From a virus, in the IMG/VR virus record IMGVR_UViG_3300031952_000033, positions 1 to 45,336 of that record: DNA of 45,336 bases, one strand, 5' to 3'. The notes beneath the pieces are model-generated. The model was not told the DNA's origin. It searched no databases and saw nothing but the letters and a program-made list of their open reading frames with translations. Below are positions 21,131-44,283 of the stretch, in pieces. Positions within the stretch are counted from its first letter, which is position 1. The number at the start of each line of letters is the position of its first letter. The translations under genes and the position numbers were made by a program.

Positions 21131-21429
21131 TCTGTATACGCCCAATGATTAGTAAACTTATGATTCTCAAACCAATATATGAACATTGCATTAACCGCTA
21201 TATGAGACATGTGAGATAAACCAGACTCCTTATCTATTAGTTCTCCCTTATGAGCTGCTAATAGATGTCTATACAAAGCTGCTAATAACCTTTCCGGATC
21301 TAAACCCTTCCAGTTATCAGGTGAATACTTCTCAGCACCCATAGTAAGAACCTTAGCCATTTCCTCTATAAACTCTGGTTCTAATAGATTACACATTGGC
21401 TTTTCTTTATCAAACTTTACTGGTTTCAT
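21127..21429 (-). CDS. dATP/dGTP diphosphohydrolase N-terminal-like domain
   Basis: The 100-residue protein matches the dGTP_diPhyd_N domain: KFDKEKPMCNLLEPEFIEEM, VLTMGAEKYSPDNW, LLAALYRHLLAAHKGE, and SGLSHMSHIAVNAMF. The family is widespread in phages and is thought to act on purine deoxynucleotides. It overlaps the deoxyribosyltransferase-like gene by 20 bases. It may alter the dNTP pool to favour viral DNA. Confidence 0.75.
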   Translation of the reverse strand: MKPVKFDKEKPMCNLLEPEFIEEMAKVLTMGAEKYSPDNWKGLDPERLLAALYRHLLAAHKGELIDKESGLSHMSHIAVNAMFIYWFENHKFTNHWAYTE

Positions 21430-28642: not shown

Positions 28643-29197
28643 TCATTTAACCTTCTTACAATCTTTACAAAGCTTCTTAAGTTTATCATTATCACAAGAA
28701 CAGTCTACATTATCTACAATATGTATCTCTTCTCTCTTTATTAACCCGGCCTTAAACCCATTATAGTATTCTTCTAGTTTAGCTTCCATTAGTAATTGAT
28801 AGTCCCTCATTCTAGACTCTATTGGTGCTTCTATAGCCGGATCATCATATATCTGTCCTTGTAAACTTAGTTTAAGCTTAATAGCATCTACTAGCCTTTC
28901 TATCGTGGCGCCAGCCAGTCCACCTTCAACACCCTTCTTAATTAGGGCATCTAGGTCGGTTACTATAGCTTGCTTCTGTAATTGTAAAGTTTCATATTGT
29001 TTAGCACCATGACAAGCTTTACATAGTAGTTGACAGTTCTCTTTACTGTTATTAGCATTATTACCGTCTTTATGGTGTCCATGGTAGCCATACATAAGAG
29101 ACTTACCACATTTACCACACATACCACCCTGTTCACCAAATACTTCCTCTAGTACCTTAATACTAAAGTTCTTTCTAGTATCTTCTTTATTTACCAT
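28643..29197 (-). CDS. HNH endonuclease
   Basis: The 184-residue protein has zinc knuckles CGKC (27-30) and CKAC (59-62) around a beta-beta-alpha metal site: YHGHHKDGNNANNSKENC, with His41/His42 and Asn49/50, then CH63. Residues 70-150 are helical. A further Cys cluster (CSCDNDKLKKLCKDC) lies at the C-terminus. It might cut or nick DNA for recombination, packaging or host DNA breakdown. It is not next to TerL as packaging HNH genes are. Confidence 0.8.
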   Translation of the reverse strand: MVNKEDTRKNFSIKVLEEVFGEQGGMCGKCGKSLMYGYHGHHKDGNNANNSKENCQLLCKACHGAKQYETLQLQKQAIVTDLDALIKKGVEGGLAGATIERLVDAIKLKLSLQGQIYDDPAIEAPIESRMRDYQLLMEAKLEEYYNGFKAGLIKREEIHIVDNVDCSCDNDKLKKLCKDCKKVK

Positions 29198-29434
29198 TTA
29201 TGACACCGTACCCCAAGTTCTAATATTACCACACTTTTTACATTTAAGGATAAGATTATATCGTATTTTTCTAATCATTAGATGCATAATACTTCTATGA
29301 CAATTAGGACAATAAGCAAGCATAGTATATTCCCAATTCTTATGAAACTTAATCTTCCCATGAAGCTTACTTCTTATCCAATTAATAATAGATATTATGT
29401 TGAACATACTTTTACTTCTCTTAAGTATCGGCAT
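29198..29434 (-). CDS. Zinc-ribbon protein
   Basis: The 78-residue basic protein (start MPILKRSKSM) has CPNCH and CKKCG, a zinc ribbon, in its C-terminal half and an amphipathic N-terminal helix. The frame is open to 29464; the ATG at 29434 is preferred because it reduces the overlap with the preceding gene. Nucleic-acid binding is likely. Unknown function. Confidence 0.5.
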   Translation of the reverse strand: MPILKRSKSMFNIISIINWIRSKLHGKIKFHKNWEYTMLAYCPNCHRSIMHLMIRKIRYNLILKCKKCGNIRTWGTVS

Positions 29435-29618
29435 ATATTTCACACCATCTACACATTTTACCATTAACTATATTCATACAGAATACAAAGAACTGTCCAC
29501 ATGTTTGTAAGGCGTTAGTGTACTTAAGCTTTCCACTACACTTAGGACAGTTTCTAGGTATGTTATTCTTAGGCTTTTCGTCTGCTTCTACCCATCCATC
29601 TATTTCTATCTTAGACAT
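29421..29618 (-). CDS. Small multi-cysteine zinc-binding protein
   Basis: The 65-residue protein has seven cysteines: CPKC at about 24-27, then single cysteines at TCGQ and FCMN, and CRWC near the end. It resembles short topoisomerase-type or ribbon zinc fingers. It begins one base after the metallophosphoesterase stop codon region. Unknown function. Confidence 0.5.
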   Translation of the reverse strand: MSKIEIDGWVEADEKPKNNIPRNCPKCSGKLKYTNALQTCGQFFVFCMNIVNGKMCRWCEIYADT

Positions 29619-29619
29619 A

Positions 29620-30420
29620 TTAACGGACTTCTGAATATTCTATCTTAAAGTTAACAGTGTACTTACCCATAACCGGAATAATCTTTAACACTGGACTACC
29701 TAATGTCGTTGGTTGGTAGGTTTTTTCTTCTACATAAGCCATTGGTCCTAAAGTATATCCTCTTAAGAAGCTTCCACCATATAGAAAGTGAGAGATTTTA
29801 TCATGTATCATTCCACCATCTATATATAGGCTAGTCTTTTTCTCTATTAGTCCTAAAGCATGCATATGGCCCATTATATACAAATCAAGCATAGGGAATA
29901 TCGCATACAGATCAAATACTCTATTTACTCTAGCTCCAGCAGTTCTTGCTCCACTCCAACCATGGTGTGTATAGATATTAAAGTTGCCCTTTTCACCCCT
30001 AAATTCATTGAAGTGTAATCTAACATATGCATCCATAGTTAAGTATTCTGTACCCAAGTTTCTAGATAGTTGCTGAACAAAGTTATAATTGTGTCTCTTC
30101 CAAAGATTATAGTCATGATTACCGTCTATTAATCCTAAGCATTTATTAGATATAGGTCTAAACATTTCTTCTATTGCATTAAATTGATCCTGTGGTGTCT
30201 TAAATTCCGGATCTTGACTATCATAGTTAAATCTAGGATCACTATTAGTAATACATTCTCCATAGTCTCCACCACCTAACCAGTAACAATTAGTTTTTTG
30301 AATATAGTCAATAACATTCTTCAGCATTGACTTATCACAGTTAATGTTTCCTAAGTGTATATCTGAAATATTTACTAATACTAGTTCTTTAGCCTTTACT
30401 TCAATCTTTGAGTATTTCAT
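29620..30420 (-). CDS. Calcineurin-like metallophosphoesterase
   Basis: The 266-residue enzyme has all metal-binding motifs: SDIHLGN (Asp20, His22), GGGDYGE (about 49-55), DGNHDYN (GNHD), THHG, and GHMH. Domains of this type include Mre11-like nucleases and phosphatases. It lacks the Mre11 capping domain and there is no Rad50-like ATPase in the window, so its substrate (DNA ends or a phosphoprotein/nucleotide) is open. Its ATG overlaps the stop of the SANT-like gene as ATGA. Confidence 0.85.
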   Translation of the reverse strand: MKYSKIEVKAKELVLVNISDIHLGNINCDKSMLKNVIDYIQKTNCYWLGGGDYGECITNSDPRFNYDSQDPEFKTPQDQFNAIEEMFRPISNKCLGLIDGNHDYNLWKRHNYNFVQQLSRNLGTEYLTMDAYVRLHFNEFRGEKGNFNIYTHHGWSGARTAGARVNRVFDLYAIFPMLDLYIMGHMHALGLIEKKTSLYIDGGMIHDKISHFLYGGSFLRGYTLGPMAYVEEKTYQPTTLGSPVLKIIPVMGKYTVNFKIEYSEVR

Positions 30421-30929
30421 TCTATCACCCTAACTTTGTTATCAAATACTGGAATACTATCATAGTCATGTAAATTAAACTTATTAAGCTTACTTGAATT
30501 TCTATAAGATTTACTCCAACTCTTTTTACAAGTACCACATTGATACATAATACCATGACTTATTACATGTATTGATTTACAATATGGGCATGGATTATTA
30601 GGTCGTTTTGCTTGTAAAGTTCTCATACAAAAAACCATTTTCAAAATATTTAGTTCCATGGCTTTATTTTTAATTGACTCGTAAGAATGAGTGAGTATTT
30701 CCTTAGTCAATACTTCTTTTGTAGCAGTTGGATATAATACTCGTAGCTTTATTATTTCTTCATTACTCCAAACATTATGTTTTGGCCCTCTATAAACACC
30801 TAAATCAACAGCAGTTTTTCTTATTGAAGCCCAACTATGTTTAGATAACTTAGATTCTAATTCTTTTCTAGTAGCTGTAGAATAAAGTTTCTTTAGTAAT
30901 TCTATTTCTTCAATAGTCCATCTATTCAT
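30417..30929 (-). CDS. Tandem SANT/Myb-like HTH plus zinc-ribbon regulator
   Basis: The 170-residue protein has two tandem Trp-anchored helical units, WTIEEIELLKKLYSTATRK (about 4-22) and WSNEEIIKLRVLYPTATK (about 54-71), each followed by a SWASIRKTA or SYESIKNKA helix, as in SANT/Myb domains. A zinc ribbon (CPYC and CGTC) completes it. It is probably a sequence-specific DNA-binding protein or transcription factor. The two units arose by duplication. Confidence 0.7.
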   Translation of the reverse strand: MNRWTIEEIELLKKLYSTATRKELESKLSKHSWASIRKTAVDLGVYRGPKHNVWSNEEIIKLRVLYPTATKEVLTKEILTHSYESIKNKAMELNILKMVFCMRTLQAKRPNNPCPYCKSIHVISHGIMYQCGTCKKSWSKSYRNSSKLNKFNLHDYDSIPVFDNKVRVIE

Positions 30930-31129
30930 ATTTTCATATCCAAATCAAGTTTATCTTCTATTTTAGACCAATTTGGAACTATATAGTCTAATACAGCTTT
31001 TATAATCTTAACCATTTCGGTCCTATCACTAAATGAACCAATAGAAGTATATTTTTCTAAATCCCTACATACTTCTATAAGTTTCCAAATCTTATCTAGT
31101 TTATCAAGTTCTAATCTTATATCATTCAT
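30926..31129 (-). CDS. Small helical protein
   Basis: This 67-residue protein is acidic and helical, with a heptad-like Leu pattern (LELDKLDKIWKLIEV). It overlaps both neighbours by four bases (ATGA). It may be a dimeric partner of the DNA methyltransferase or the SANT-like protein. Unknown function. Confidence 0.5.
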   Translation of the reverse strand: MNDIRLELDKLDKIWKLIEVCRDLEKYTSIGSFSDRTEMVKIIKAVLDYIVPNWSKIEDKLDLDMKI

Positions 31130-32088
31130 TCTAGTACATCCCTAATATGCTTTAGTAGATATGTAGCGAACCTTATATCTACTCCACTTGCTATCATACG
31201 GCTTTTCTCTTGTACATTCTTATCCGGAAATCTATAGCTTAGTGGGAATCCCATTATAAGCTGTAGTTCCGGTGTAGAGAAAAAGCGTTCTCCTTTCTCC
31301 CTCTGGTATATTTGGTTATGAGTAGAAAACTTAACTAAGGTAAAAGATATACTCTTACCGGTTAAAGTTCTTTTAGCTTTTCTTTCTGGTGTAGCCAATA
31401 GACTAAAGGGACCGGCTCTAGGTTTACCGTCTGTTCTAAGTAGGCTCATAAGCATTCTAGTATCTGGTTTATAGTTATCTACATCATACTTTCTAGAGAC
31501 TTCCTCAGGTACTACATCACTAATACTTAGTGCCGGTTGCATATTTAAGGTACATAGTGGTGATTCTATATTACCTAAATCCCTTCTCCTACCAAATACA
31601 TATAGCCTATTCCTATGCTGTGCCGAACCATATTCTGCTGCATCCATTACAGCATAGTCATAGTTATAATCTGGTCTAAGAATATCACAATACTCTTGGA
31701 ATAGTGGCTTACCTTTAGTAAGTATTTCTGGTACCATTTCCATTAAAAAGTGTTTAGGACTAACTTCTATAGCTACAGCCTCAGCAAAATTAAGAGTATG
31801 TTTATTACAAGGATGATCTAACCTACTAATAGGGCTAGCCTTACTAAAACCTATACACGGTGGACTACCAACCATAAGGTCTATATCATTACTAGCTGCT
31901 ATAGGCTTACTAATCATTACATTAGGAAAGTTCATCATTAGAAGCGTACGTGATACTTTGTCTTGCTCCATCCTAAGACAAGGGTCCAAAGTAACATCTG
32001 GTTGGTAATGGCTTAGTACCGGAATACCGGCGTTCAGTAAAGCTTGGGTCCAATGACCGTAGGTTGCATAAAAGACTATAGCTCTCAA
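31126..32088 (-). CDS. C5-cytosine DNA methyltransferase
   Basis: The 320-residue enzyme transfers methyl from SAM to C5 of cytosine. Motif IV is GSPPCIGFSKA with the catalytic Cys, motif VI LMEMVPEIL, motif VIII QHRNRLYVFGRR, and the C-terminal motif X ASGVDIRFATYLL. Motif I is unusual: FYATYGHW in place of the FxGxG loop. Residues about 180-260 form a short target-recognition region. It starts at a TTG under its own TATA box. No partner restriction enzyme is adjacent, so it is an orphan methyltransferase for self-protection or regulation. Confidence 0.85.
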   Translation of the reverse strand: MRAIVFYATYGHWTQALLNAGIPVLSHYQPDVTLDPCLRMEQDKVSRTLLMMNFPNVMISKPIAASNDIDLMVGSPPCIGFSKASPISRLDHPCNKHTLNFAEAVAIEVSPKHFLMEMVPEILTKGKPLFQEYCDILRPDYNYDYAVMDAAEYGSAQHRNRLYVFGRRRDLGNIESPLCTLNMQPALSISDVVPEEVSRKYDVDNYKPDTRMLMSLLRTDGKPRAGPFSLLATPERKAKRTLTGKSISFTLVKFSTHNQIYQREKGERFFSTPELQLIMGFPLSYRFPDKNVQEKSRMIASGVDIRFATYLLKHIRDVLE

Positions 32089-32102
32089 AAGAGTCCCTAC
32101 TA

Positions 32103-32279
32103 TTATAGTGTATCCGTCTTATTTAAAGGTTTCTTAGTAAAGGTCTCTGGATTCTTATTCTTTATATGGGTCATCATATTCCTACATTGTTGACATACTG
32201 CGCCTTTCTCTTCATCTTTATTCTTTTCTTTAAACCACTTTAGCCTTTTACATACTGCACATATTTTACGTATCTTCAT
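32103..32279 (-). CDS. Small zinc-finger protein
   Basis: The 58-residue basic protein starts MKIRKICAVCKRL and has CAVC (7-10) and CQQC (29-32). The ATG overlaps the stop of the membrane protein gene as ATGA. It resembles small archaeal viral zinc fingers that act as regulators. The methyltransferase promoter lies within the end of this gene. Confidence 0.6.
   Translation of the reverse strand: MKIRKICAVCKRLKWFKEKNKDEEKGAVCQQCRNMMTHIKNKNPETFTKKPLNKTDTL
32118..32129 (-). promoter_or_regulatory. TATA-box promoter for the DNA methyltransferase
   Basis: CCTTTAAATAAG on the minus strand lies 30-41 bases before the TTG at 32088. It matches the TTTAAATA core of other promoters in the window. Confidence 0.55.
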
Positions 32280-32443
32280 TTATTTATCTCCTTGATTAAT
32301 ATATACAAGAATCCTATACTGCTACAAACAAAGAATAGTAGTATAGCCATTATGAACATTGGAAAGAATACCATAAAGAAGATATTGAATACTAGGTATT
32401 CTAGCCATAAGAATAAAGCCATTAGTACCTTAATAATACTCAA
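32276..32443 (-). CDS. Small two-helix membrane protein
   Basis: This 55-residue gene starts at a TTG overlapping the preceding stop as TTGA and ends overlapping the next ATG as ATGA. Nearly the whole protein is hydrophobic, giving two closely spaced transmembrane helices (about 5-28 and 30-50, with FMVFFPMFIMAILLFFV), then KEINK. It may act as a holin or envelope modifier; evidence is only composition. Confidence 0.5.
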   Translation of the reverse strand: MSIIKVLMALFLWLEYLVFNIFFMVFFPMFIMAILLFFVCSSIGFLYILIKEINK

Positions 32444-33060
32444 AACATTACCTTCCAGTCAAAATCCTTTACACTAATAAATACTAGTTTACCGGTTACA
32501 AAGCTCATTGCTCTAGCATCCTTCATACACTTATTAAGGAACTGAAGCTTCTCCCTATCTCCTTTAAAGGCTGTTTTATAAGTAGAATAAGCTCTAGCTA
32601 TTATAGTATTTGCTATCATTTCTGTAGCTACTATTTCACCATTATTAATAAGAGCAAAGATTACCGGATTCTTATACATCTTACTTTCTTGAAGGCCTAT
32701 ACCAAGCGGCTTATTAGGTAGTTCTTGTATTTGGTTAAAGTTCCTATTATGTACTTCTTCATTACCAAATAGTACCATGGTCCTTTCTTTCCACTTCTTT
32801 AACCATAAGCTAATCCAAACGTCTACTTCTTCTTTAGCATCACTATACTTATTTACCCACCAGATAAAAGCTTCTTTAATATCATCACTAGTTACTTCTA
32901 CATCAGAATGAATATTCCATTTAACCTTAAGATAATTATAAAAGTCCTCTATAGCTATATGGTACAGTTTAGAATCTAGACCATTAGGACTAAATTCTGG
33001 TAGTAAGTCCTTTAATCTAGTCATGATCATTGTACTTATTATATAGCTATCACTTAACAT
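32440..33060 (-). CDS. Hypothetical protein
   Basis: The 206-residue soluble protein has a Trp-rich helical N-terminal half (AFIWWVNKY, VDVWISLWLKKWKER) and a mixed C-terminal half with FALINNGEIVATEM. I do not recognise a family. It begins a short block that ends in the C5 methyltransferase. The start ATG at 33060 is preceded by an 87-base gap (33061-33147) in which I see no gene or clear promoter. Confidence 0.55.
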   Translation of the reverse strand: MLSDSYIISTMIMTRLKDLLPEFSPNGLDSKLYHIAIEDFYNYLKVKWNIHSDVEVTSDDIKEAFIWWVNKYSDAKEEVDVWISLWLKKWKERTMVLFGNEEVHNRNFNQIQELPNKPLGIGLQESKMYKNPVIFALINNGEIVATEMIANTIIARAYSTYKTAFKGDREKLQFLNKCMKDARAMSFVTGKLVFISVKDFDWKVMF

Positions 33061-33147
33061 AGTTATTACCTTTTATTATTGTCCATAAATAGTGAAGTTA
33101 GTCTTTGATAATGGTTCCCTGTAGAATCCTCTACAACATTATGAAAA

Positions 33148-33663
33148 CTAACTAATCATTTCTACTGGACTAATATTACTAGGATTATTATATAAATATC
33201 TTAGACATAATAGGGCTTTCTTTCTGGCCCATCTAATTCTTAACCGTTCCCTACATTTCTTTTTATATTTTTCTGCAAAAATTAGATCATTCTGACATCG
33301 CCTTTTTATATAATTCAATGAATATAAATTCATTTTCTTTCTAAAAGTATCATCAGTTAATCTCCTATTTCTAATATAAGTATAGTGCTTCCATTCTGGA
33401 TCTGTCTTTAACTTCTTAGTTTGCCATTTACTAGTACTTACACTAATTTTCTTTTTCTGTTCAAATGTTAATTCTGAATATGGTTTATGCCTACCAATAG
33501 CATGAGGAATAATTCCCTTCTTAGTTTTTCTGCATTCTGAACAGATACACATATGGCTTTTCATTAATCTTATAAACCATCTTCCACATAACTTACAACG
33601 TGGTTCGGGAATCTTATTATGAGATCGATTCTTTAATGTTGGACTAAACTTTCTTTCTTTCAC
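33148..33663 (-). CDS. Basic zinc-finger protein, possible homing-endonuclease-related
   Basis: The 171-residue, very basic protein has CKLC (about 23-26) and CSEC (about 37-40), then a NUMOD3-like helix region (HKPYSELTFEQKKKISVS), and an Arg/Lys-rich C-terminus. This looks like a DNA-binding part of an HNH or GIY-YIG homing nuclease without a recognisable catalytic domain. It starts at GTG. It has its own TATA box. Confidence 0.5.
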   Translation of the reverse strand: MKERKFSPTLKNRSHNKIPEPRCKLCGRWFIRLMKSHMCICSECRKTKKGIIPHAIGRHKPYSELTFEQKKKISVSTSKWQTKKLKTDPEWKHYTYIRNRRLTDDTFRKKMNLYSLNYIKRRCQNDLIFAEKYKKKCRERLRIRWARKKALLCLRYLYNNPSNISPVEMIS

Positions 33664-33698
33664 GTTTTATTCTTTCCTAATCTATATAGGTAGCTTAC

Positions 33699-33710
33699 TT
33701 TATTTAAACC
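33699..33710 (-). promoter_or_regulatory. TATA-box promoter for the 33148-33663 gene
   Basis: GGTTTAAATAAA on the minus strand lies 36-47 bases before the GTG at 33663. The 80-base gap 33664-33743 holds no gene. A purine stretch (AAAGG) just upstream fits a BRE. Confidence 0.55.
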
Positions 33711-33743
33711 TTTCCTTTAATCTGTAGAACATGTATACACTTC

Positions 33744-34022
33744 CTAAACTCTATCAAATTCTATTAGCGGTTGGTAACTATTCCAACCACATATATTATC
33801 TAAAGCTGTAGAAGTTATTTCATCTAGAATATCTAATAATACTAAATGTACTACCTCATGACTAAGTATCTCACCCATTAGTTCCTGTGTTAACCTTCTC
33901 CAATTCTTAGTCCCGAAGCTGAACCTTTCCTTAAGTATTATTTCTCTACTAGTTAGACTAACCATTGTACCCTTTACACATGCTTCTGATTTCTGTTTAG
34001 CCAATCTAACAGTGTACTTCAT
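33744..34022 (-). CDS. Small HEXXH zincin-like protein
   Basis: The 92-residue protein has a helix with SHEVVHLVLLDI (HEVVH at about residues 52-56), the zinc-binding and catalytic motif of zincin metalloproteases. It is shorter than most families. The third ligand is not certain; Asp60, Glu63 or Asp71 downstream are candidates. It overlaps the DUF2061-like membrane gene as ATGA. It may be a minimal peptidase acting on host or capsid proteins, or a derived zinc-binding protein. Confidence 0.55.
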   Translation of the reverse strand: MKYTVRLAKQKSEACVKGTMVSLTSREIILKERFSFGTKNWRRLTQELMGEILSHEVVHLVLLDILDEITSTALDNICGWNSYQPLIEFDRV

Positions 34023-34192
34023 TTTATAATCCTCTCTAAGCTATAATGTAATAGTGTATGAACTATAATACAAATAGGAGTAGTGAATATAGGAATAACA
34101 AAGGAACCGGTAGCTGCATAGACTATAGCATATTCAGAAAATACTGACAGTATCCTATAGATTATTACCCTCTTAAGTTTATTGCTTATCAA
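34019..34192 (-). CDS. DUF2061-like two-helix membrane protein
   Basis: From the TTG at 34192 the protein is 57 residues and closely follows the DUF2061 pattern: RVIIYRILSVFSEYAIVY, an ATGSF turn, then PICIIVHTLLHYSLERI. A GGTAGG sequence lies upstream of the TTG. The frame is open to 34258, but that would overlap the preceding gene by 80 bases. The function of the family is unknown. Confidence 0.5.
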   Translation of the reverse strand: MISNKLKRVIIYRILSVFSEYAIVYAATGSFVIPIFTTPICIIVHTLLHYSLERIIK

Positions 34193-34613
34193 AGCCAGTC
34201 CTACCCATCGCTGTAGAGCTCTTCCTTTCATTATAAGCCGTACCCACTTCACCATCAACCTTAAAGAACATCATCTGAAATATATCCTTATAGTTAAAGG
34301 TCTCATTCAAATGATATACTATAAAGGTAAGTTTACCACTGAACCCCGGATCTACTAATGGACTAAAAGAAGCATATACTTCATCTTGTATTACTGCTCT
34401 AGACCTTAAGCCTACTATACCAGCTACATTTCTAGGTAAAATGAAATGCTCCATAGATACTAACCTAGCTATATCATGCTTCCAGTCTTGTATAGTAGTT
34501 TCTATATCGTAGCTTACTGGTCCTAGATTCTTTCTTTGGAAGGGACATATTAAAGGCCTACCGGCTATAGCAAGTTCTCTAGCTAACTTCTCTATTTCAA
34601 TATCACTTAACAT
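34179..34613 (-). CDS. dcd: dCTP deaminase/dUTPase-superfamily protein
   Basis: The 144-residue trimer-fold protein has PVSYDIET, GLRSRAVIQ (uses the RSS/RSR motif, 69-72) and VDPGFSGKLTFIVY. Asp88 is the catalytic Asp shared by dUTPases. At the position of the deaminase Glu (E. coli Glu138) there is Ile98, so true dCTP deamination is doubtful; a dUTPase or dCTP pyrophosphatase is more likely. Start ATG at 34613 gives an 11-base overlap with the previous gene. It belongs with the ThyA-like and kinase genes. Confidence 0.75.
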   Translation of the reverse strand: MLSDIEIEKLARELAIAGRPLICPFQRKNLGPVSYDIETTIQDWKHDIARLVSMEHFILPRNVAGIVGLRSRAVIQDEVYASFSPLVDPGFSGKLTFIVYHLNETFNYKDIFQMMFFKVDGEVGTAYNERKSSTAMGRTGFDKQ

Positions 34614-35052
34614 TCCTTTTATTCTCCAGAAAACTACTATTATCAGTAACCGATACAACAGCTTTAGTTAGTAAGAACTTCTCAAATTCCGGTGTAATCC
34701 ATTTAAATTCACAATTACAACATTCAAAATACTCCACATCTGGTTTAAATGGATTCTTAGAATCAAATAGATCATTTCTATAAGTTTCAGAATGGGCAGT
34801 ACATCTACATCTAGGACAAGGGTTCGGATCTGGTTTCTGGTGATCTACACAATACTGACATCTATAATGCCAAATACCATGACTATCTTCATGTCCTTCT
34901 AAAGTATTTTGATCACATGCATAACATCTTCCACCAGAAGAACTTAACCTAGACCGCTTTGGAATCTTTATATTATTAGGCATAGGTTCATGTAATTTCC
35001 TAGCCTTCTCTATACCCATAGCCTTTGTATATAATCTACTTTCGTCAGTCAT
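34603..35052 (-). CDS. Multi-zinc-ribbon protein
   Basis: The 149-residue protein has CYAC, CQYC, CPRCRC and CCNC clusters, at least two zinc ribbons of the rubredoxin or transposase type, and conserved His residues between them. The ATG at 35052 overlaps the ThyA-like stop as ATGA, which ties it to the nucleotide metabolism set. No enzymatic motif is visible; it may bind nucleic acid or partner enzymes. Confidence 0.55.
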   Translation of the reverse strand: MTDESRLYTKAMGIEKARKLHEPMPNNIKIPKRSRLSSSGGRCYACDQNTLEGHEDSHGIWHYRCQYCVDHQKPDPNPCPRCRCTAHSETYRNDLFDSKNPFKPDVEYFECCNCEFKWITPEFEKFLLTKAVVSVTDNSSFLENKRNVK

Positions 35053-36038
35053 GGTCTCCACCGCTGTTCATATATCCTTCCTAAGTCAGTTATATTACTT
35101 CGTACATATTCATAAGAAGCTTCTTTACTTAGTACATTCTTTTTAAGCCTTAAGTTGTAAGCCATTATCATAGTCATTAGATTCTCATAGAAGTAGTTAT
35201 AAGCGTAATGTTTACCTTCTGGTATTCTAAAAGCTACAGATTCAAAGTTTCTCTTTCTACAGTTAGCCTCCCATAATGCTAAAGTATCTAGTGTACAGTC
35301 AAATTGCCACTTAGGCATTCTAGCATCATATATTATAGTAGCATCATAAATATTATGGTTATAGTCCTCTTCCACTACCTTTCTAGCCTTATCCCAATCC
35401 CTTTCGTAAAGATGTAAACTACCGTCTATATGAATATATCTTCCTAACTGCACACCTAACCAACCGGCCATTATTTCTTGGAACCATTGGAATTCTCCAG
35501 TATCATATATTAAGCCTAACCAAGCATCTTGACTTCTCATGGTTACTATCATGTCTAATAGATTATTCCTTAGTAAGAATTGGAAGCTTAAAGTACATGG
35601 ATAGTCTTTAGTTGGTAAAGTATGAAGTAAAGGATTATTAATAATTACTATAGCTTGTCTAGTATCTGGATCATGAATAAGCCTATCATAACATTGTTCT
35701 AACTGCTTACCTATAGCCGGTCCATAAGCTCCATCTAGTACACCGGTCTTTTCATTAACAAAGTTAGCCATTCCCGGTACATAATGTACTAGTCTAGCCG
35801 GTGCTGCTTCTCCCTTTAGTATCCACATGCCTTCTATGTAAGTAAATATCGGTACTTCTTTACGGTTAGGATGTCCAAATAGTCTTTGTCTAGGATCAAT
35901 AGACTCTATACATACCGGACTAAGTTCTCTAGTCTTTAAGCCCCTTGGACCAACTTCTTTACCTTCATCTAGAATCTTCTTTAGTATCTGTGTATATAGG
36001 TTTGGTATAGTACCATTCTCAAAGGTGATCAAGTTCAA
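35049..36038 (-). CDS. thyA: ThyA-family enzyme, probable dCMP hydroxymethylase (N-to-D)
   Basis: The 329-residue enzyme has the ThyA fold: EGMWILKGE, DTRQAIVI with the phosphate Arg127, catalytic Cys148 in KDYPCTLSFQF, RSQDAWLGLIYD (168-179) and LHLYERD (208-214). Asn177 of E. coli ThyA, which recognises uracil, corresponds here to Asp179. In T4 dCMP hydroxymethylase and in the N177D mutant, Asp at this place selects cytosine. So the product may be 5-hydroxymethyl-dCMP or 5-methyl-dCMP rather than dTMP. It overlaps the dNMP kinase and starts at a TTG (approximate). Confidence 0.82.
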   Translation of the reverse strand: MNLITFENGTIPNLYTQILKKILDEGKEVGPRGLKTRELSPVCIESIDPRQRLFGHPNRKEVPIFTYIEGMWILKGEAAPARLVHYVPGMANFVNEKTGVLDGAYGPAIGKQLEQCYDRLIHDPDTRQAIVIINNPLLHTLPTKDYPCTLSFQFLLRNNLLDMIVTMRSQDAWLGLIYDTGEFQWFQEIMAGWLGVQLGRYIHIDGSLHLYERDWDKARKVVEEDYNHNIYDATIIYDARMPKWQFDCTLDTLALWEANCRKRNFESVAFRIPEGKHYAYNYFYENLMTMIMAYNLRLKKNVLSKEASYEYVRSNITDLGRIYEQRWRP

Positions 36039-36612
36039 AATCTCCTATAGCGTTCAATATTTCTGAACATATATATTCTGGTGTATTCTTACTCATGTCA
36101 GTATGATAGACTAGGACTTCTAACTTTGTTTTAGTATAAGCCACTAAATATCTTGCTACTATAGCAATATATTCTCCTAGTCCTTTTAGATATTCCCCAA
36201 CTCTATTAGCAGTCCTATTGTAAGCTTCTTTAGGTTCTACAACAGTTAGTATAACTAATAGGACGTTTTCTCTACCTATCTCAGATATTAGCCTATCTTC
36301 TATAGTAAAGATTTCTTCAGCTAACCATATTGGATAGTCTCTTTTAACTATTCCATAAGCATATTCTCCTAGATGGAACCGGTCGCATATTATAATAGCT
36401 CTAGGATTCTTAGTTAGTATTTCCTTGAATATCTTTATACTAGCCTCATACTGGCCATAAGCTTCAGCTGCCTTCTGGAACATATCCAGTCCATGAGTAG
36501 GATATGAATAGTTTATTATGTGGGCCCGGTCTCCAAAATACTGCTTAAGTTTCTCTATTAAGGTAGTCTTTCCACTTCCATCAATACCCTCAATAATAAT
36601 TAATTTACCCAT
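36019..36612 (-). CDS. tmk: Thymidylate/deoxynucleoside monophosphate kinase
   Basis: The 197-residue kinase has the P-loop EGIDGSGKTT (8-17), the DRF motif CDRFHLGEYAYG, and a lid with NRTANRVGEY. It phosphorylates dTMP or a related dNMP with ATP. Given the overlapping ThyA-like gene with the dCMP-type active site, it may act on modified dCMP, as T4 gene 1 kinase does. The sequence cannot distinguish these substrates. Confidence 0.8.
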   Translation of the reverse strand: MGKLIIIEGIDGSGKTTLIEKLKQYFGDRAHIINYSYPTHGLDMFQKAAEAYGQYEASIKIFKEILTKNPRAIIICDRFHLGEYAYGIVKRDYPIWLAEEIFTIEDRLISEIGRENVLLVILTVVEPKEAYNRTANRVGEYLKGLGEYIAIVARYLVAYTKTKLEVLVYHTDMSKNTPEYICSEILNAIGDFELDHL

Positions 36613-36660
36613 TCTGTTTTTCTCTCCAATACTTTTCTATAGGTATAAGTTTATTCATAT

Positions 36661-36801
36661 CTACCACATTCTTATTTCATAATCCTCTAGAATCTTAGCT
36701 AGTAAAACTATTACATCTTCCGGTGTCAGATTACCTACATGACTCATAGAGACCTTCATCCTCTTTAGTATTTCTTCCGCATTCTTATCCAACATATTCA
36801 T
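36661..36801 (-). CDS. Small helical protein
   Basis: The 46-residue gene starts within the end of the uracil-DNA glycosylase gene and reads MNMLDKNAEEILKRM, then LTPEDVIVLLAKILEDY, two amphipathic helices. It ends in a 48-base gap before the kinase gene. Overlap with the upstream gene and helical periodicity support translation, but the function is unknown. Confidence 0.45.
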   Translation of the reverse strand: MNMLDKNAEEILKRMKVSMSHVGNLTPEDVIVLLAKILEDYEIRMW

Positions 36802-37363
36802 CTATCCTCTTTTTCATTAGTCTAAAGAAGGCTAAGTATTGAAGGGTTGCTTGGAACCCAAAACGTAGAACGTATGCGGGATGGTATAATACCTTAACCA
36901 AGCACCCTTCCCACTTATAATCTATATACACCGCCCTATTTAAAGGTTCTGTTATTCCAAACCAATTAGCTGCCGTCCTACCTAGACATACTATTACTTT
37001 AGGATTAACTAAGTTAATTTCTTCTCTTAGAAACTGCTTACAAGCAAGTATTTCACTATCTTCTGGCTTTCTATTATCTGGTGGATTACATTTAACAGTA
37101 TTAGTAATATATACATCATCATATCCATTAGGCCAGTTAGTGTATACACATTCTAAGAGTAAATCACTGGACCTATTACCTACAAAGGGTAGGCCTCTTA
37201 GTTCTGGATTCTCTACCTTTCCCGGTGCTTCACCTATGAACATTACCTTAGCATTTAGATTACCTAAACCCGGACACCGGTGTTGGCCTAAACCACAAAG
37301 TTTGCATCTTTTGCACTTACTTACTCTATCAATATAGTCTATAAACTTAGTATCTTTATTCAT
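36785..37363 (-). CDS. udg: Family 4 uracil-DNA glycosylase (Fe-S)
   Basis: The 192-residue enzyme removes uracil from DNA. Cysteines 17, 20, 92 and 108 match the four cluster ligands of UDGa. The active site has GEAPGKVEN (44-52), the NTVKCNPPDNRKP block (88-100) and HPAYVLR with His161. Family members in phages may also act in polymerase fusion or repair. It lies upstream of the kinase and ThyA-like genes, so uracil removal is integrated with pool control. Confidence 0.88.
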   Translation of the reverse strand: MNKDTKFIDYIDRVSKCKRCKLCGLGQHRCPGLGNLNAKVMFIGEAPGKVENPELRGLPFVGNRSSDLLLECVYTNWPNGYDDVYITNTVKCNPPDNRKPEDSEILACKQFLREEINLVNPKVIVCLGRTAANWFGITEPLNRAVYIDYKWEGCLVKVLYHPAYVLRFGFQATLQYLAFFRLMKKRIDEYVG

Positions 37364-37471
37364 CTAAGCACCCAAGATTAACTTATAGAATACTACCACC
37401 CATATACAGAATACTATGGACATAACTATTATAGTAATGGTTGGTGGTATTTTATTGTATGAAATAATCAT
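37364..37471 (-). CDS. Single-helix membrane miniprotein
   Basis: This 35-residue gene starts at an ATG overlapping the preceding stop as ATGA and has one transmembrane helix (ITIIVMSIVFCIWVVVFY). It ends right before the glycosylase ATG. The overlap chain supports a real small gene. Unknown function. Confidence 0.5.
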   Translation of the reverse strand: MIISYNKIPPTITIIVMSIVFCIWVVVFYKLILGA

Positions 37472-37671
37472 TCTCTCCTTTTATTATATCTTTTAGAAAC
37501 TCCCCACTTATGCCTATATTCCCTTTTTAAATCCATTAGGACTTTATGCCAACACTTACGGCACCATCTCTTTCTATACTTAGATAGAAACTTTCCACAT
37601 TTTTCACATTTAAGTTGTATCCAAGAGGTTAGCCTACCATGTGTATATAATCTAGTTCTATTATAGCTTAT
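37468..37671 (-). CDS. Small zinc-finger protein with probable ATA start (HG-L-W family)
   Basis: The 67-residue protein has THGRLTSWIQLKCEKC and CRKC, followed by a long basic tail. It is the third member of the paralogue family (also at 25663 and 352). No ATG, GTG or TTG lies between the upstream in-frame stop and the conserved core. An ATA at 37671 overlaps the previous stop (ATAA), and GGAAGGTGG lies four bases before it, so a rare ATA start is likely. Long-ORF searches miss it. Confidence 0.6.
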   Translation of the reverse strand: MSYNRTRLYTHGRLTSWIQLKCEKCGKFLSKYRKRWCRKCWHKVLMDLKREYRHKWGVSKRYNKRRE

Positions 37672-37910
37672 GGTTCCACCTTCCTTTTTCTTACTTCTAG
37701 TCTAAAGTGCGGATCTTCCTTCATATACTGTTCATAGTGGACATTATTAGTAGAATAGTACCAGTCATCATAAGCCTTAGAACAGTCATTACATTCAGCG
37801 GCATGCCATAGCATACTTAAGACTTCCTTTGTACTATGTTTACCACTAGGACTTCCTTTCATTCCCTTTAGCCAATCTAGAAACTTAGTGCATTTTACTT
37901 TTCTTTCCAT
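37668..37910 (-). CDS. Small protein with HxxxCxxC zinc motif
   Basis: The 80-residue protein has WHAAECNDCSKAY, the HxxxCxxC pattern found in anti-sigma zinc domains and some regulators, with further cysteine at position 7. It is charged and soluble. It overlaps the preceding gene by 16 bases. It could be a regulator binding the transcription machinery; this is inferred only from the motif. Confidence 0.5.
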   Translation of the reverse strand: MERKVKCTKFLDWLKGMKGSPSGKHSTKEVLSMLWHAAECNDCSKAYDDWYYSTNNVHYEQYMKEDPHFRLEVRKRKVEP

Positions 37911-38248
37911 TTATCTTCTACTCCTTCTAGATAAGTACAATGCTGACACTTTTTACCTTTAAGTACAGAATATACCCCAGTATTTTGTTTATCACATTCT
38001 TCTATACTAGAATGTGGACAACCTATAGATTCAGAATGCAATAAGCATCTTACTACAAATGTACTTTCCCAATCATCACCTTGCATATGTGCAAATAGTT
38101 CTCTAAATCTATAATCATCTTTTCCATACTTAGCTTCAAAATACTTTAAAGCATAACTAGCAGCTTCTAAATAAAGACTCTGTTCTACTGAACCATATTC
38201 ATAGACTTCAACAATTGCATAAGCTTCATTTATAGACTTGAATTTCAT
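37895..38248 (-). CDS. Hypothetical His/Cys-containing protein
   Basis: The 117-residue protein has a helical N-terminus (LYLEAASYALKYFEAKYGK) and a C-terminal cluster of His and Cys (CLLHSE, CPHSS, CQHC) suitable for zinc. I do not recognise it. Its ATG overlaps the methyltransferase stop as ATGA. Confidence 0.5.
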   Translation of the reverse strand: MKFKSINEAYAIVEVYEYGSVEQSLYLEAASYALKYFEAKYGKDDYRFRELFAHMQGDDWESTFVVRCLLHSESIGCPHSSIEECDKQNTGVYSVLKGKKCQHCTYLEGVEDKWKEK

Positions 38249-39033
38249 CTTTTACACACCCATAGTATATTTCTACTTTGATAGGGATGTTGTGAAGCAA
38301 AGACTACACTTAGAACCTCTGGAGCAAACCATGGTTTAAGGTTATCATATACTTCCCTTTCTGCCTCTGTTAATACTGGTTCTATATCCTTCTGGCTAGC
38401 AAATGTACCTATCATCTTCTCTATAATAAAGAACTTTTTAAGGTAAAGTTCTAATTCTATATCAGTATATTCATGTATATGGTTCTTAGCACTTCCAACT
38501 TTAGAATCATAGTTAGGTGTAGATAAGAATAATAGGCCACCCGGTTTAAGTACCCTTCTTATCTGGTTTAGTACATGGCTAATATACTTCTCTTCAAAGT
38601 GTTCTACTACTTCTAAGCAGACAGCAATATCATATTGAGGATACGCGGCAATACAAGGAATATCTTTATTCGGATCTTGAAGAATAGTTAACATACGAAT
38701 GGACGGTAAAGTATCAACTCTAATATCGCATTGATGTCCTATTACAGTAAAGTTAGTTTTAAACTCCATCATCTGTTCTATCATATTCTTCCTTATGTCT
38801 ACTCCTACATATAGGTTAGGCTTAAGCTTATTAGAATATAGGGACTTTAGTAAAGGAAAAGAACCACAGCCTACATCTATAATAGACATTCCTATCTTTA
38901 TATGTCTTAGTACATATTGCCATCTTAGACAGTGGGCAATATAATCCCTGTGTATCTGGTTTCTAGCCCAGCCTTGATAGGCTACCTTAGCAGCACATTC
39001 AGTAGTATTTATTGGTCCTAACCCTTTATCCAT
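38245..39033 (-). CDS. SAM-dependent class I methyltransferase
   Basis: The 262-residue enzyme has motif I IIDVGCGSFPLL (about 54-65), motif II VGVDIRKNM, motif IV LEVVEHFEEK, and the post-motif RVLKPGGLLFLSTPNYD, typical of Methyltransf_11/23. Such enzymes methylate small molecules, sugars or proteins; no DNA-methylase motif (such as DPPY) is present. It might modify a glycan or an unusual base. Neighbours do not decide. Confidence 0.8.
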   Translation of the reverse strand: MDKGLGPINTTECAAKVAYQGWARNQIHRDYIAHCLRWQYVLRHIKIGMSIIDVGCGSFPLLKSLYSNKLKPNLYVGVDIRKNMIEQMMEFKTNFTVIGHQCDIRVDTLPSIRMLTILQDPNKDIPCIAAYPQYDIAVCLEVVEHFEEKYISHVLNQIRRVLKPGGLLFLSTPNYDSKVGSAKNHIHEYTDIELELYLKKFFIIEKMIGTFASQKDIEPVLTEAEREVYDNLKPWFAPEVLSVVFASQHPYQSRNILWVCKR

Positions 39034-39281
39034 ATGTTTGGCACTTCACTGCCCTTTTTAATAGGTCTATCTTCTCTAGCCGGTATATTTCGTATTCTCG
39101 TAATTTCAATATGTCTTTCTTCTTCAGTAAGCTTAATCTTCTTACCATTAAAGTAGACAGCTTCTGCATCATGCTTCTCTCTAGCCTTAGCACTAAAGTC
39201 ATACTCCATTAGTAGCCTACTCTTTAAGGCGGCTTCTAATGCTTCTTTACTTATGAAATTATGGTCTCCTATTCTTATCAT
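39018..39281 (-). CDS. Small hypothetical protein
   Basis: The 87-residue charged protein starts MIRIGDHNFI and has two helices (EALEAALKSRLLMEY and TEEERHIEITRI). It has no recognised motif. Its start overlaps the previous stop as ATGA, and it overlaps the methyltransferase by 16 bases. Confidence 0.5.
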   Translation of the reverse strand: MIRIGDHNFISKEALEAALKSRLLMEYDFSAKAREKHDAEAVYFNGKKIKLTEEERHIEITRIRNIPAREDRPIKKGSEVPNIWIKG

Positions 39282-39523
39282 CTTACATATACATCCGTTT
39301 GTTTTTGTTTAGTTACCTCTTTTTTATTAAAGTTAGCTAGTTCTTCTTCATTCTGAAATATCTTAATCTGACCACTTAACCACAGTTCTATAGCATGTTC
39401 TTTCTTCTCATGTTCACCTAGACTATATTCATTAAGAGATACAATTAATGAATAGCTTATGGTAAGCCTTAAAGCTACCATTTCTACATGCTTAGTAGTT
39501 CCATCCATAGTCCTAAAGTGCAT
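39278..39523 (-). CDS. Small hypothetical protein
   Basis: The 81-residue protein has a beta-rich N-terminus (VEMVALRLTISYSLIVSL) and a charged C-terminus. I do not recognise it. It lies directly after the small helical gene, with coupled ends. Unknown function. Confidence 0.45.
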   Translation of the reverse strand: MHFRTMDGTTKHVEMVALRLTISYSLIVSLNEYSLGEHEKKEHAIELWLSGQIKIFQNEEELANFNKKEVTKQKQTDVYVR

Positions 39524-39673
39524 TTACTTATGCTCCTTCATTTCTATTTCCTTTTCTTCTAGGGCCCACTCAATAAGAGTAGTTAGGTCTATTAAAGATT
39601 CCGGTGTAATGCAGTGTTTAAGGAAGTATTCATGTACATTAGCCTTTAGTTCTTTAGACCATTTATTAGTCAT
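39524..39673 (-). CDS. Small helical protein after the topoisomerase-like gene
   Basis: The 49-residue protein reads MTNKWSKELKANVHEYFL and ends in a charged amphipathic helix (LIEWALEEKEIEMKEHK). It overlaps the end of the topoisomerase-like gene by eight bases. It is a short ORF in an otherwise open 142-base gap. It may be a small cofactor. Confidence 0.5.
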   Translation of the reverse strand: MTNKWSKELKANVHEYFLKHCITPESLIDLTTLIEWALEEKEIEMKEHK

Positions 39674-41288
39674 CTAGGCCCTCCCTTAGTCTCGGATCTT
39701 CTCTAAACCTTTCTAGTAAAGCTTCTCTAATCTTCTGGATGTCCTTTTCTTTAGCACCTATCCGCTTCTCTATAAGGTCATATCCATTAGGATTATAGTT
39801 CTCTTCATTATGGATAGGTTCAAACTTAGTATCTAGGATAGGTTCTGGTCCTTCATAGCCTTCCTTAGCACTAACTAAAGCCTCTTCAAACTCATCTAGG
39901 TTCCAGTTGGTTTCTATTTCAAACTGCTTCTTTATCTTATGTGCTATTGCTGCTAAGTCGTAACTAGCCCTCTTAGGGTCCTCTTCAAACTGCTTCCATA
40001 TATGGTACTTTATTTCTTTAGCACCAATCTCATCTAGAGCTCTTTCATAGGCCGGTAGCATATCCTCATAGATGTCCTTCTTAAGCTGCTCCTTTAGTTC
40101 TGTAAGCCAATGGTAGTAATCCCAAAAGAACTTAGGATAGGCTATTTTCTCATCTATCTCTCTCTTTAGTTCTTCCCTAGCAGCTTCATCAAATTCTGCC
40201 TTAAGCTTCTTATCATCCGGCATTGGCGGCTTAACCGGTATTCCAAATAGTCTCATATATTCTACTAGATAAATACCTAAGCCTATAGGTTCACCTTTAT
40301 TATTCTCAAACCCGGCTGATAGGCTTTCTAGTTCATAAGTCTTATCTCTACCCCAAGCATCATAGTCCAATTGGTTTAGTAAGCCATGGCTCATTAGAAA
40401 GTTTATTCTTTGCTGTACAAAGGGATTCTGTAGTGGCCTCTTTTGTTCTACATCATTAGCTAGTCCTAAGTTCTCTCCAATACTAGGATAGAATCCAGCT
40501 AGATATATCTTAGGATATTTCTTTGGTGGGAACTTATAAGCTAGGTGTCTACTTGCTTCCGTTCCAGCTTGAATAGTCCTTAGCATGTCTACTCCATAGG
40601 CATCTGCATCTGCTAGGAAGATCATATTTTTCTGGTCCTTAAACCTACTAGCCAGTTCCCATATTGCTCTGCTAAAGTTACCTCCCACAGTAACTATTAT
40701 GCTATTAGTAAATTCTGATAGGCCAAGCTCTACAATTCTGTTAGCCGCTGCATTCTTCTCTACTACTATGATGTTCTCACAAGCTCCACATTGCCATTCT
40801 TCCTCTTTCTCCGGCTTCATAATAGTTCTAGCTACTACTTCAGTAAAGGCTATTTTTCTTTCCTTATGTCCAAATACCGGTGAATGGAAGTAATATAAGA
40901 ATCCTTTACTTAAGTTCCCTATAGTGAAGGTATCCCGGTTAATATCACATAGTATTTCTAGGTCATTAATCGCTCCTAGTACATTAGGATAGATGTTATC
41001 TGGATTAGCTGTATTAAAAGGCTTAACTAGTTCTGGTGTAGTCCTTACTGTGTAGTAAAATTCTCTAAGTTCTCTTGGTGCCTTACCGCTTAGTATAGCC
41101 GCTGATATAGCCCTCTGAACCATTAAGGCCTCATACTTGATCTTAGCTTCTTTTTCTAGTAGAACAAAGCCAGTATCATCACTATAGAATTCTACATCTT
41201 TACCATTTACCTTTTGAGTCTCAGCTAGTTTTTTACTAATGAATTCTTTTCTTTTATCAGTATTCTTTATTTCAAATATCTTTACCAT
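39666..41288 (-). CDS. Topo VI-A/Spo11-like protein ('Mini-A') with long C-terminal extension
   Basis: The 540-residue protein has the winged-helix catalytic motif RELREFYYTVR with Tyr78/Tyr79, and a Toprim domain: IVVEKNAA with Glu177 and FLADADAYGVDM with Asp227 and Asp229, then GENLGL as in Topo VI-A. Canonical A subunits have 350-390 residues; here a charged, Trp- and Glu-rich extension of about 200 residues follows. A CGAC (167-170) precedes Toprim. No B subunit (GHKL ATPase) is in the window, so this fits the Mini-A group, which may cut DNA without ATP-driven strand passage. Replication initiation, recombination or host DNA breakage are possible. Confidence 0.82.
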   Translation of the reverse strand: MVKIFEIKNTDKRKEFISKKLAETQKVNGKDVEFYSDDTGFVLLEKEAKIKYEALMVQRAISAAILSGKAPRELREFYYTVRTTPELVKPFNTANPDNIYPNVLGAINDLEILCDINRDTFTIGNLSKGFLYYFHSPVFGHKERKIAFTEVVARTIMKPEKEEEWQCGACENIIVVEKNAAANRIVELGLSEFTNSIIVTVGGNFSRAIWELASRFKDQKNMIFLADADAYGVDMLRTIQAGTEASRHLAYKFPPKKYPKIYLAGFYPSIGENLGLANDVEQKRPLQNPFVQQRINFLMSHGLLNQLDYDAWGRDKTYELESLSAGFENNKGEPIGLGIYLVEYMRLFGIPVKPPMPDDKKLKAEFDEAAREELKREIDEKIAYPKFFWDYYHWLTELKEQLKKDIYEDMLPAYERALDEIGAKEIKYHIWKQFEEDPKRASYDLAAIAHKIKKQFEIETNWNLDEFEEALVSAKEGYEGPEPILDTKFEPIHNEENYNPNGYDLIEKRIGAKEKDIQKIREALLERFREDPRLREGLDD

Positions 41289-41478
41289 ATTTATTCCTTC
41301 TTATTTCTTTCCATATCTTAGATAACGATAAACCTATTAGAACCTCTAAGCTTTCTAACCCAACTGTAATACCTACCATTTCATAGATACTAAGTGAAGG
41401 TAAGCCTAAAGCAGTTAAGCTCACCATAGTACCAACTGATGTTTGAGAGACTATAATCCCTACTATTAGTCTATTCAT
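41272..41478 (-). CDS. Small two-helix membrane protein
   Basis: From the ATG at 41478 (MNRLIVGIIV) the protein is 68 residues with two transmembrane helices (about 3-22 and 30-50) and a basic tail (KIWKEIRRNKYGK). GGGAAG lies at the right distance upstream; an ATG at 41493 is also open. Resembles DUF2061-like small membrane proteins. It overlaps the topoisomerase-like gene by 17 bases. Confidence 0.5.
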   Translation of the reverse strand: MNRLIVGIIVSQTSVGTMVSLTALGLPSLSIYEMVGITVGLESLEVLIGLSLSKIWKEIRRNKYGKDI

Positions 41479-42847: not shown

Positions 42848-43582
42848 TCACCTACTACTATTAATCCAGTTCTGCCTATAAAGGTTTCTATTTATCTGTT
42901 CTACATCTATACAGCGCCATGGTACAACTGTATGTATACCAAGCACCATTTCCTTTATAGCTTCTTGGCAAGTGATAGCTAAGGTCTCATCCATCCAAGC
43001 TCTATCAACCTTACTTTTAACTAGCTTCTGATAGTACCGGTACTTTTCTTCAATACTTTCTTTTCCTTTATCTAGGTAAGTTAAGGCCGATGTTGCTATT
43101 GAATTACTCCGGTTTATTCCAGCAGCACACTTCACACAGACTTTAGCTCCCTTTTCTAGTAAGTAAACTACTTCTTCAATCTTGTCTCTGACCGGCTGTA
43201 TAAAGATTTCATTATCTTCAATGCCTTGCCATACTTCCACTACTTCCCATCCGGCATCAACCTTATCATGCCAACCACCTGTGGCTAAGTTACTAGTAAT
43301 CTTATTCATTCCATATTTGAAGAACTTTACCTTAGTACCGGCTATTGGCATCCAGAAGCCGGTTTCTTTAGTATTACCTATAGAATCCATATAAGCTAGT
43401 ACATCCAATTCTATATGTGGATAAGCTTTATAGAGTGGCCTAAGATCATATACTTCAGTCTTTCCTTCTGCTAGGTTAGGAAGATATTTCTTAAAGTTTA
43501 TTTTCTTTATCATTCTAGCTTCCTTCTCTTTAGCCTTCTTAAGTGCTTTAAGTAGGCGCTTATTCTTAGTTCTGGTTTTCAT
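42848..43582 (-). CDS. Dual-specificity/tyrosine phosphatase-like protein
   Basis: The 244-residue protein has the phosphatase signature CVKCAAGINRSNSIA, with Cys152, Arg158 and Ser159 in the CX5RS form. Asp123, in GIEDNEIF, lies 29 residues upstream, the usual distance of the general acid. The N-terminal 30 residues are a basic coiled coil. It should remove phosphate from proteins or RNA 5' ends. Two kinase-like genes lie 200-950 bases upstream, so a phosphorylation switch is plausible. Confidence 0.78.
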   Translation of the reverse strand: MKTRTKNKRLLKALKKAKEKEARMIKKINFKKYLPNLAEGKTEVYDLRPLYKAYPHIELDVLAYMDSIGNTKETGFWMPIAGTKVKFFKYGMNKITSNLATGGWHDKVDAGWEVVEVWQGIEDNEIFIQPVRDKIEEVVYLLEKGAKVCVKCAAGINRSNSIATSALTYLDKGKESIEEKYRYYQKLVKSKVDRAWMDETLAITCQEAIKEMVLGIHTVVPWRCIDVEQINRNLYRQNWINSSR

Positions 43583-43782: not shown

Positions 43783-44283
43783 CTACTTCACCAATATCCA
43801 TTCTTTTGAATTACCATATCCATAGTCTCTTATTACCATCCTTTCTCCATACATTCCAACATTACTATGACCAAAATCTTTATAGTAGATATTGTTTCTC
43901 ATTAGTTTGCCTTCAAAGCCAGCATAGTCATCCCATGCTACATCTGGACAATAAGGCATTACTAGCCAAGAATAATCTTCAGCATAAGCTAGTATAGGAA
44001 GTAAATACTTCTTAGCTTTAGAAGGACAACTTAGCCAGTTTTCTACTTCTTGCTGATTCTGGTTAAAGTCGTTATCTTCTTCATTTACTTCTAATTTCAC
44101 TACTATAGACTTATTTTTAGAAGCAAAGACATGCCTAGATAGGCCCATATCAATAAAGTCAAATCCATTAGCTTCTAGAATCTTAGCTAATTCTTCAGCC
44201 TTATCTACCCTACTTTTACAGCTATGAATTTCTGTAGTATTCTGGTTTAGTAGGCCTACTATATTCTTTACTTCCTTATTCAT
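43783..44283 (-). CDS. Diverged protein kinase-like protein
   Basis: The 166-residue protein has a small-lobe strand with Lys63 (SIVVKLEV), helix-C-type Glu79 (QQEVENW), a hinge (SWLVMPYC), a catalytic-loop-like DFGHSNVGMYG (Asp136, Asn141) and a metal-site RDYGYG (Asp153, DYG in place of DFG). It is shorter than normal kinases and lacks the substrate-binding lower helices. It is homologous to the gene at 44517-45260. Phosphate transfer is likely but unproven; a pseudokinase is possible. Confidence 0.6.
   Translation of the reverse strand: MNKEVKNIVGLLNQNTTEIHSCKSRVDKAEELAKILEANGFDFIDMGLSRHVFASKNKSIVVKLEVNEEDNDFNQNQQEVENWLSCPSKAKKYLLPILAYAEDYSWLVMPYCPDVAWDDYAGFEGKLMRNNIYYKDFGHSNVGMYGERMVIRDYGYGNSKEWILVK

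Follow-up and report, generated by a model that had tools for sequence, protein, structure and literature searches.

A predicted deoxycytidylate 5-hydroxymethylase in a putative archaeal tailed virus and its linkage to a class-I methyltransferase family

Here, we report a ThyA-family gene that probably encodes a deoxycytidylate 5-hydroxymethylase and that, together with a neighbouring kinase and a class-I methyltransferase, would make a modified, perhaps hypermodified, cytosine in viral DNA. The gene lies in the IMG/VR virus record IMGVR_UViG_3300031952_000033, the whole of which was analysed (45,336 bases, hereafter the window) and whose longer open reading frames are almost all on the minus strand (Table 1). 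Homology, active-site residues, gene linkage and an archaeal-virus context all bear on this reading.

Table 1 Position and supporting evidence of features in the window.
Feature	Position	Strand	Evidence or remark
Methyltransferase with long C-terminal part, glycosyltransferase-like by eye	17163-18515	-	among head genes
GT2 glycosyltransferase	18575-19318	-	among head genes
dATP/dGTP diphosphohydrolase N-domain protein	21127-21429	-	PF18909; overlaps the next feature
Nucleoside deoxyribosyltransferase-like protein	21410-21886	-	
C5-cytosine DNA methyltransferase	31126-32088	-	PF00145 2.2e-25; SPPC, EMV, QHRNR motifs
Small hydrophobic protein adjoining DCD-like gene	34019-34258	-	synteny, about 11 relatives
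DCD/dUTPase-family protein, predicted dUTPase	34179-34658	-	PF22769 4.7e-7; TIGR02274 1.2e-8, under its cut-off
Predicted dCMP 5-hydroxymethylase	35049-36038	-	ThyA fold, 329 aa; C148, D145, T149, S169, D179
Thymidylate-kinase-like (Tmk-like) kinase, predicted hydroxymethyl-dCMP kinase	36019-36612	-	PF02223 1.8e-8; phrog_761 3.5e-19
Family-4 uracil-DNA glycosylase (UDG4)	36785-37363	-	NF040953 6.6e-40; TIGR00758 above its cut-off
Class-I SAM methyltransferase, HRDYxxHxxRW ... PxQSRNxLW family	38245-39033	-	predicted to act on hydroxymethylated cytosine; gene linkage
Dual-specificity-phosphatase-like protein	42848-43582	-	
Protein with kinase-like stretch	43783-44283	-	related to the next feature
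Protein with kinase-like stretch	44517-45260	-	

The gene product matched PF00303 (1e-18), and in a sequence search of the PDB its best match was the CMP 5-hydroxymethylase MilA (2e-28), with thymidylate synthases at about 1e-10. A profile built from the product and seven relatives matched MilA at 1e-38 and the best thymidylate synthase at 2e-17. Residues were compared in a multiple alignment of the product with 13 close (51-69% identical) and three distant relatives from IMG/VR, phage proteins from AXL3, PW916, two Manatee Spring phages, phage G (gp319), DSL-LC01 and Phendrix, and four references (SPO1 gp29, T4 gp42, E. coli ThyA and MilA). In E. coli numbering, the product carries E58, Y94, R126, D143, C146, T147, R166, S167, D177, H207 and Y209, among them the catalytic Cys, Glu58 and His207/Tyr209 that go with the ThyA fold. 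A preliminary description of this DNA had put Asp179 at the E. coli Asn177 site and noted that Cys148 is kept; the alignment, in which the RSxD..(L/W)G motif fixes the position-177 column, bears this out, with D179 and C148 exactly at E. coli sites 177 and 146. Asp occupies position 177 in the product, in 13 of 13 close relatives, in T4 gp42, in MilA and in the other aligned phage proteins, whereas Asn stands there in E. coli ThyA and in the dUMP enzyme SPO1 gp29. The Asp group has Thr at position 147, where SPO1 gp29 carries Asn and E. coli ThyA His, and every relative combines Thr or Ser at 147 with Asp at 177. At position 143, three residues before the Cys, all aligned hydroxymethylases including SPO1 gp29 have Asp (D145 of the product) and E. 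coli ThyA has Leu. Overall, the active site equals that of T4 gp42 at D177, T147, D143, S167 and R126, the positions of specificity and chemistry.

Structures and mutants of the T4 enzyme and MilA assign cytosine recognition to the Asp at 177 and water activation to the Asp or Glu at -3 from the Cys (PMC5175136, PMC6400193), and in the MetaGPA metagenome association study positions 177 and 147 were the top two discriminators of modified-cytosine contigs (PMC8670742). The CMP preference of MilA is set by Ala176 and Lys133 (PMC5175136); at the corresponding positions 167 and 126, MilA has Ala and Lys and our product has Ser and Arg. From these residues, the product is predicted to be cytosine-specific (Asp177 and Thr147), hydroxymethylating rather than methylating (the -3 Asp) and of the deoxyribose type (Ser167 and Arg126). 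The cytosine specificity proposed in the preliminary description is thus upheld at the level of prediction, and of the two products it had named, 5-hydroxymethyl- and 5-methyl-dCMP, the former is favoured. Two residues count against this assignment. The first is T4 Ser94, which is named in the hydroxymethylase signature (Ser or Thr at the second position ahead of the active Tyr) and is Gly103 in the product. Since SPO1 gp29, an accepted hydroxymethylase, and the phage relatives also lack it, we regard Ser94 as peculiar to the T4 group and not as defining the wider hydroxymethylase family. SPO1 gp29, 34% identical to our product, shares with it the -3 Asp and differs in its uracil-type Asn at both 177 and 147. 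The second residue is at the E. coli R127 site, where SPO1 gp29, most phage relatives and the product all have Gln.

The fold points the same way. An AlphaFold2 model made from an eight-row alignment (pLDDT 75, pTM 0.80, weak at 137-147 and 172-176 near the active site) was compared with the PDB by Foldseek, and the top seven matches were all MilA, aligned at a TM of 0.72-0.78 over about 344 columns that take in the C-terminal helices, while thymidylate synthases reached about 0.5 (single values 0.77 for MilA and 0.53 for thymidylate synthase). In a tree, the product groups with its 13 close relatives in a single clade (100/100), although long deep branches leave its placement among the T4, MilA, SPO1 and ThyA lineages unsettled.

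We noticed that the preliminary description had missed the most telling partner of the gene, the class-I methyltransferase. In bacterial phages and archaeal viruses alike, relatives of this methyltransferase occur almost only next to hydroxymethylases of the Asp type. It matched five of 50,697 phage records, which represent four genomes (MW202510, MW202621, PW916 and AXL3), and in all four a single stretch holds the methyltransferase together with an Asp-type hydroxymethylase, a dCMP deaminase and an NTP-pyrophosphohydrolase. In IMG/VR, where the profile was built from hydroxymethylase-linked members and the figures therefore describe this family and not methyltransferases at large, we analysed the best 80 of 243 loci from the profile scan, of which 70 have a same-strand ThyA-family gene no more than 5 kb away; at the other ten, one or both ends of the sequence lie less than 5 kb from the methyltransferase. 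The linked genes encode Asp at position 177 in all 69 readable cases and Asn in none, which excludes chance. Clustering at 70% identity sorts the best 80 methyltransferases into 29 clusters, none of which lacks a linked hydroxymethylase, and the linked hydroxymethylases fall into 15 clusters at 50% identity, the linkage holding across groups. The negative side of this association is independent of the bias in building the profile, as ThyA-family matches (E<0.01) were found in 2,526 phage records, including SPO1-type Asn phages, and the methyltransferase in only five.

We tentatively suggest that archaeal viruses and some bacterial phages may share an undescribed two-step cytosine hypermodification, in which a dCMP hydroxymethylase acts first and a dedicated class-I methyltransferase then methylates either the hydroxymethyl group or the base so modified, to yield an uncatalogued DNA base. 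It is rather unlikely, though deserving of weight, that the hydroxymethylase is real and the linkage reflects a shared replication cassette, with the methyltransferase serving, for instance, tRNA, cap or protein methylation. The methyltransferase model (AlphaFold2, pLDDT 88.9) has a generic fold, with cap and small-molecule methyltransferases among its structure matches, and most members match a PHROG that bears the name tRNA methyltransferase; both points would suit such a cassette. However, the methyltransferase stays with Asp-type hydroxymethylases of differing groups, as at loci L039, L041 and L043, where the same methyltransferase family accompanies a distant hydroxymethylase (compare L035), and the linkage is alike in bacterial and archaeal viruses. 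At L039 and L041 the hydroxymethylase is of the Asp type with the sequence RDYVPC, suggesting that one enzyme was swapped and its partner retained. No phage methyltransferase for hydroxymethylcytosine was found in the literature searched, with most subscription papers and preprints outside its coverage.

A dCMP methylase as in Xanthomonas phage XP12, whose product 5-methyl-dCMP would lead to 5-methylcytosine DNA as in the haloarchaeal phage PhiN, is improbable here. A thymidylate synthase with an Asn-to-Asp change makes 5-methyl-dCMP by the account cited in PMC8670742, and one archaeal virus is known whose cytosine is fully methylated (PMC4284463). Against this, the product has at -3 an Asp where thymidylate synthases have Leu (the contrast drawn here being with thymidylate synthases), and this Asp is required for hydroxylation in T4 (PMC6400193); moreover, the fold fits MilA over its whole length, and the C-terminal closing tail of thymidylate synthase is not recognisable in the product. 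The XP12 dCMP methylase is absent among the matches listed for AXL3 gp28.

The neighbouring genes bear on a further alternative. The usual gene order in relatives covering this stretch is class-I methyltransferase, family-4 UDG, Tmk-like kinase, hydroxymethylase, DCD-like protein and small hydrophobic protein. The kinase overlaps the start of the hydroxymethylase gene, as the preliminary description had it, and adjoins the hydroxymethylase in these relatives as well as in the bacterial phages DSL-LC01, Phendrix, MW202510 and AXL3. The DCD-like protein, present in nine of ten related records, had been called dUTPase/dCTPase-like, and the first half of that label is the one favoured: by its sequence it looks like a dUTPase, and a dCTP deaminase identity was rejected because the catalytic Glu of those enzymes is missing in all seven aligned DCD-like proteins. 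Its nearest solved relatives (PDB 8y1w and 9ln0) have Met at the deaminase Glu site; both are labelled dCTP deaminase in the PDB, yet lack that Glu. The family-4 UDG is found in most archaeal-type relatives covering the stretch. Uracil control for archaeal family-B polymerase (PolB) is established knowledge, and the dUTPase-like protein together with UDG4 fits such a role, although UDG4 may serve either this control or the removal of deaminated modified bases.

Ordinary thymidylate supply, in which a dUMP-using synthase, a dUTPase and a UDG keep uracil out of viral DNA, would accordingly find a coherent uracil-control set for archaeal PolB in the dUTPase-like protein, the Tmk-like kinase and UDG4. 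We nevertheless consider it very improbable, given that every relative has Asp177 with Thr/Ser147, that MilA is closer than any ThyA and that the methyltransferase is linked exclusively to Asp-type genes. Thymidylate synthase identity is rejected on residues, profile score and fold, and TIGR03283 (thy_syn_methano) gave 57 bits, below its curated cut-off of 174.55. Scarcely credible is a MilA-like hydroxymethylase with a ribonucleotide or small molecule as its substrate and no role in DNA: MilA/BcmA, which serves antibiotic synthesis, is the closest solved structure, nearest by sequence and full-length fold and with the same Cys, Glu, Asp177, -3 Asp and Thr147, but we reject this identity on the deoxyribose-type Ser and Arg found here in place of the ribose-type Ala176 and Lys133 of MilA (PMC5175136), and the gene sits in a viral replication module that includes a kinase. 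The ThyA-fold flavin enzyme in PDB 9iqc, solved with dCMP, points to another possible chemistry, but its match is far weaker than that of MilA.

Elsewhere in the window, the PF18909 protein and the deoxyribosyltransferase-like protein lie upstream of PolB in map order, and the PF18909 protein, considered in the search for a dCTPase, was not found in ten related records. Two related proteins near one end of the window have a common kinase-like stretch (LPILAY...WIVMP/WLVMP), with the dual-specificity-phosphatase-like protein nearby.

Returning to the predicted hydroxymethylase, the extent of cytosine replacement is constrained by a C5-cytosine DNA methyltransferase present in the window and in six of ten related records. 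Such enzymes require a free C5, and hence unmodified cytosine, which conflicts with complete C5 replacement; the conflict implies either partial replacement, or host DNA as the target, or different chemistry. Phage G likewise combines the Asp-type enzyme gp319 with gp301, a C5-methyltransferase homologue. The C5-methyltransferase of the window has a degenerate motif I and Ser at the HhaI Asn304 site, where CmoX is recognised by Arg (PMC12783734), and CmoX-type C5-carboxymethylation was rejected on this residue. Since only one of ten related records has the GT2 gene, it is probably for virion or surface decoration, and glycosylated hydroxymethylcytosine was rejected because the gene is not conserved. 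The preliminary description had envisaged a complete T4-like replacement route. This is not supported: no dCTPase gene was identified, the DCD-family protein resembling a dUTPase, conservation of glucosyltransferases is lacking and a C5-methyltransferase occurs alongside. The viral module resembles T4 gp42 and its pathway in its specificity and water-activating residues and in having a predicted kinase partner, and, apart from the differences above, departs from it in its C-terminal region and in the Tmk family of its kinase.

A comparable module is found in Stenotrophomonas phage AXL3 and Pseudoxanthomonas phage PW916, which have the methyltransferase and the Asp-type hydroxymethylase, with a kinase in AXL3, but infect bacterial hosts and carry NTP-pyrophosphohydrolase and dCMP deaminase in place of dUTPase and UDG4. 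Of 37 restriction enzymes, only two, whose sites contain nothing but A and T, cut the DNA of AXL3, a culturable phage, and all tested enzymes with G or C in their site fail (PMC7504290). Because AXL3 has a ThyX-like protein (gp50) besides gp28 (Asp177), gp28 is unlikely to be the thymidylate synthase of that phage. The modified-cytosine contigs of MetaGPA likewise combine an Asp-type ThyA-family enzyme with a decorating enzyme, but there the decoration is carbamoyl transfer by 5-hydroxymethylcytosine carbamoyltransferase (PMC8670742); a term search of the main text of that paper returned no methyltransferase.

The assignment of the window to an archaeal tailed virus (the preliminary description had spoken of archaeal viruses) is supported by RadA, the family-B polymerase and other genes. 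RadA matches among the 50,697 phage records were to haloviruses only, RadA is present in all seven searched related records above 23 kb, and the PolB matches with the widest cover were to haloviruses HGTV-1 and HRTV-27. Genes for an ERCC4 nuclease, a Spo11/TopoVI-A Toprim protein, a terminase and a head protease are also present. Two scans of 84,980 bacterial and archaeal species genomes with the patterns used gave no cellular or proviral relatives, positions 29000-41300 had no near-identical match in the phage collection, and the ThyA family was absent from the four haloviruses checked.

Hydroxymethylcytosine pathways are known in bacterial phages. Among archaeal viruses, PhiN also has genome-wide modified cytosine, but as 5-methylcytosine in a fully cytosine-methylated genome, and a review leaves undecided whether a host or viral methylase is responsible (PMC4284463). 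The earlier suggestion that a T4-like cytosine-replacement route would be new or rare for archaeal viruses therefore does not extend to modified cytosine as such. For hydroxymethylation in these viruses, the literature searched, whose coverage leaves out most subscription papers and preprints, gave no report; the predicted enzyme would be a new dCMP hydroxymethylase from an archaeal virus, in a module that varies on the cytosine modification of phages.

The enzymatic activity, the substrates of the kinase and methyltransferase, the identity of the base, the extent of replacement and the function are what we infer in the following scheme. Cys148 would attack C6 of dCMP, and a one-carbon unit would pass to C5 from methylene-folate or an archaeal analogue, after which water rather than hydride, with the help of Asp145, would complete the reaction to 5-hydroxymethyl-dCMP. 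The overlapping Tmk-like kinase would then form the diphosphate and a host nucleoside-diphosphate kinase the triphosphate, which the viral PolB would insert. The class-I methyltransferase probably methylates the hydroxymethyl group or its base, either as nucleotide or in DNA, and the outcome would be a viral genome that carries modified cytosines and evades host nucleases. If correct, our reading would take hydroxymethylcytosine-type DNA beyond bacterial phages into archaeal viruses and would point to a methyltransferase as a decorating enzyme beside cytosine-type hydroxymethylases.
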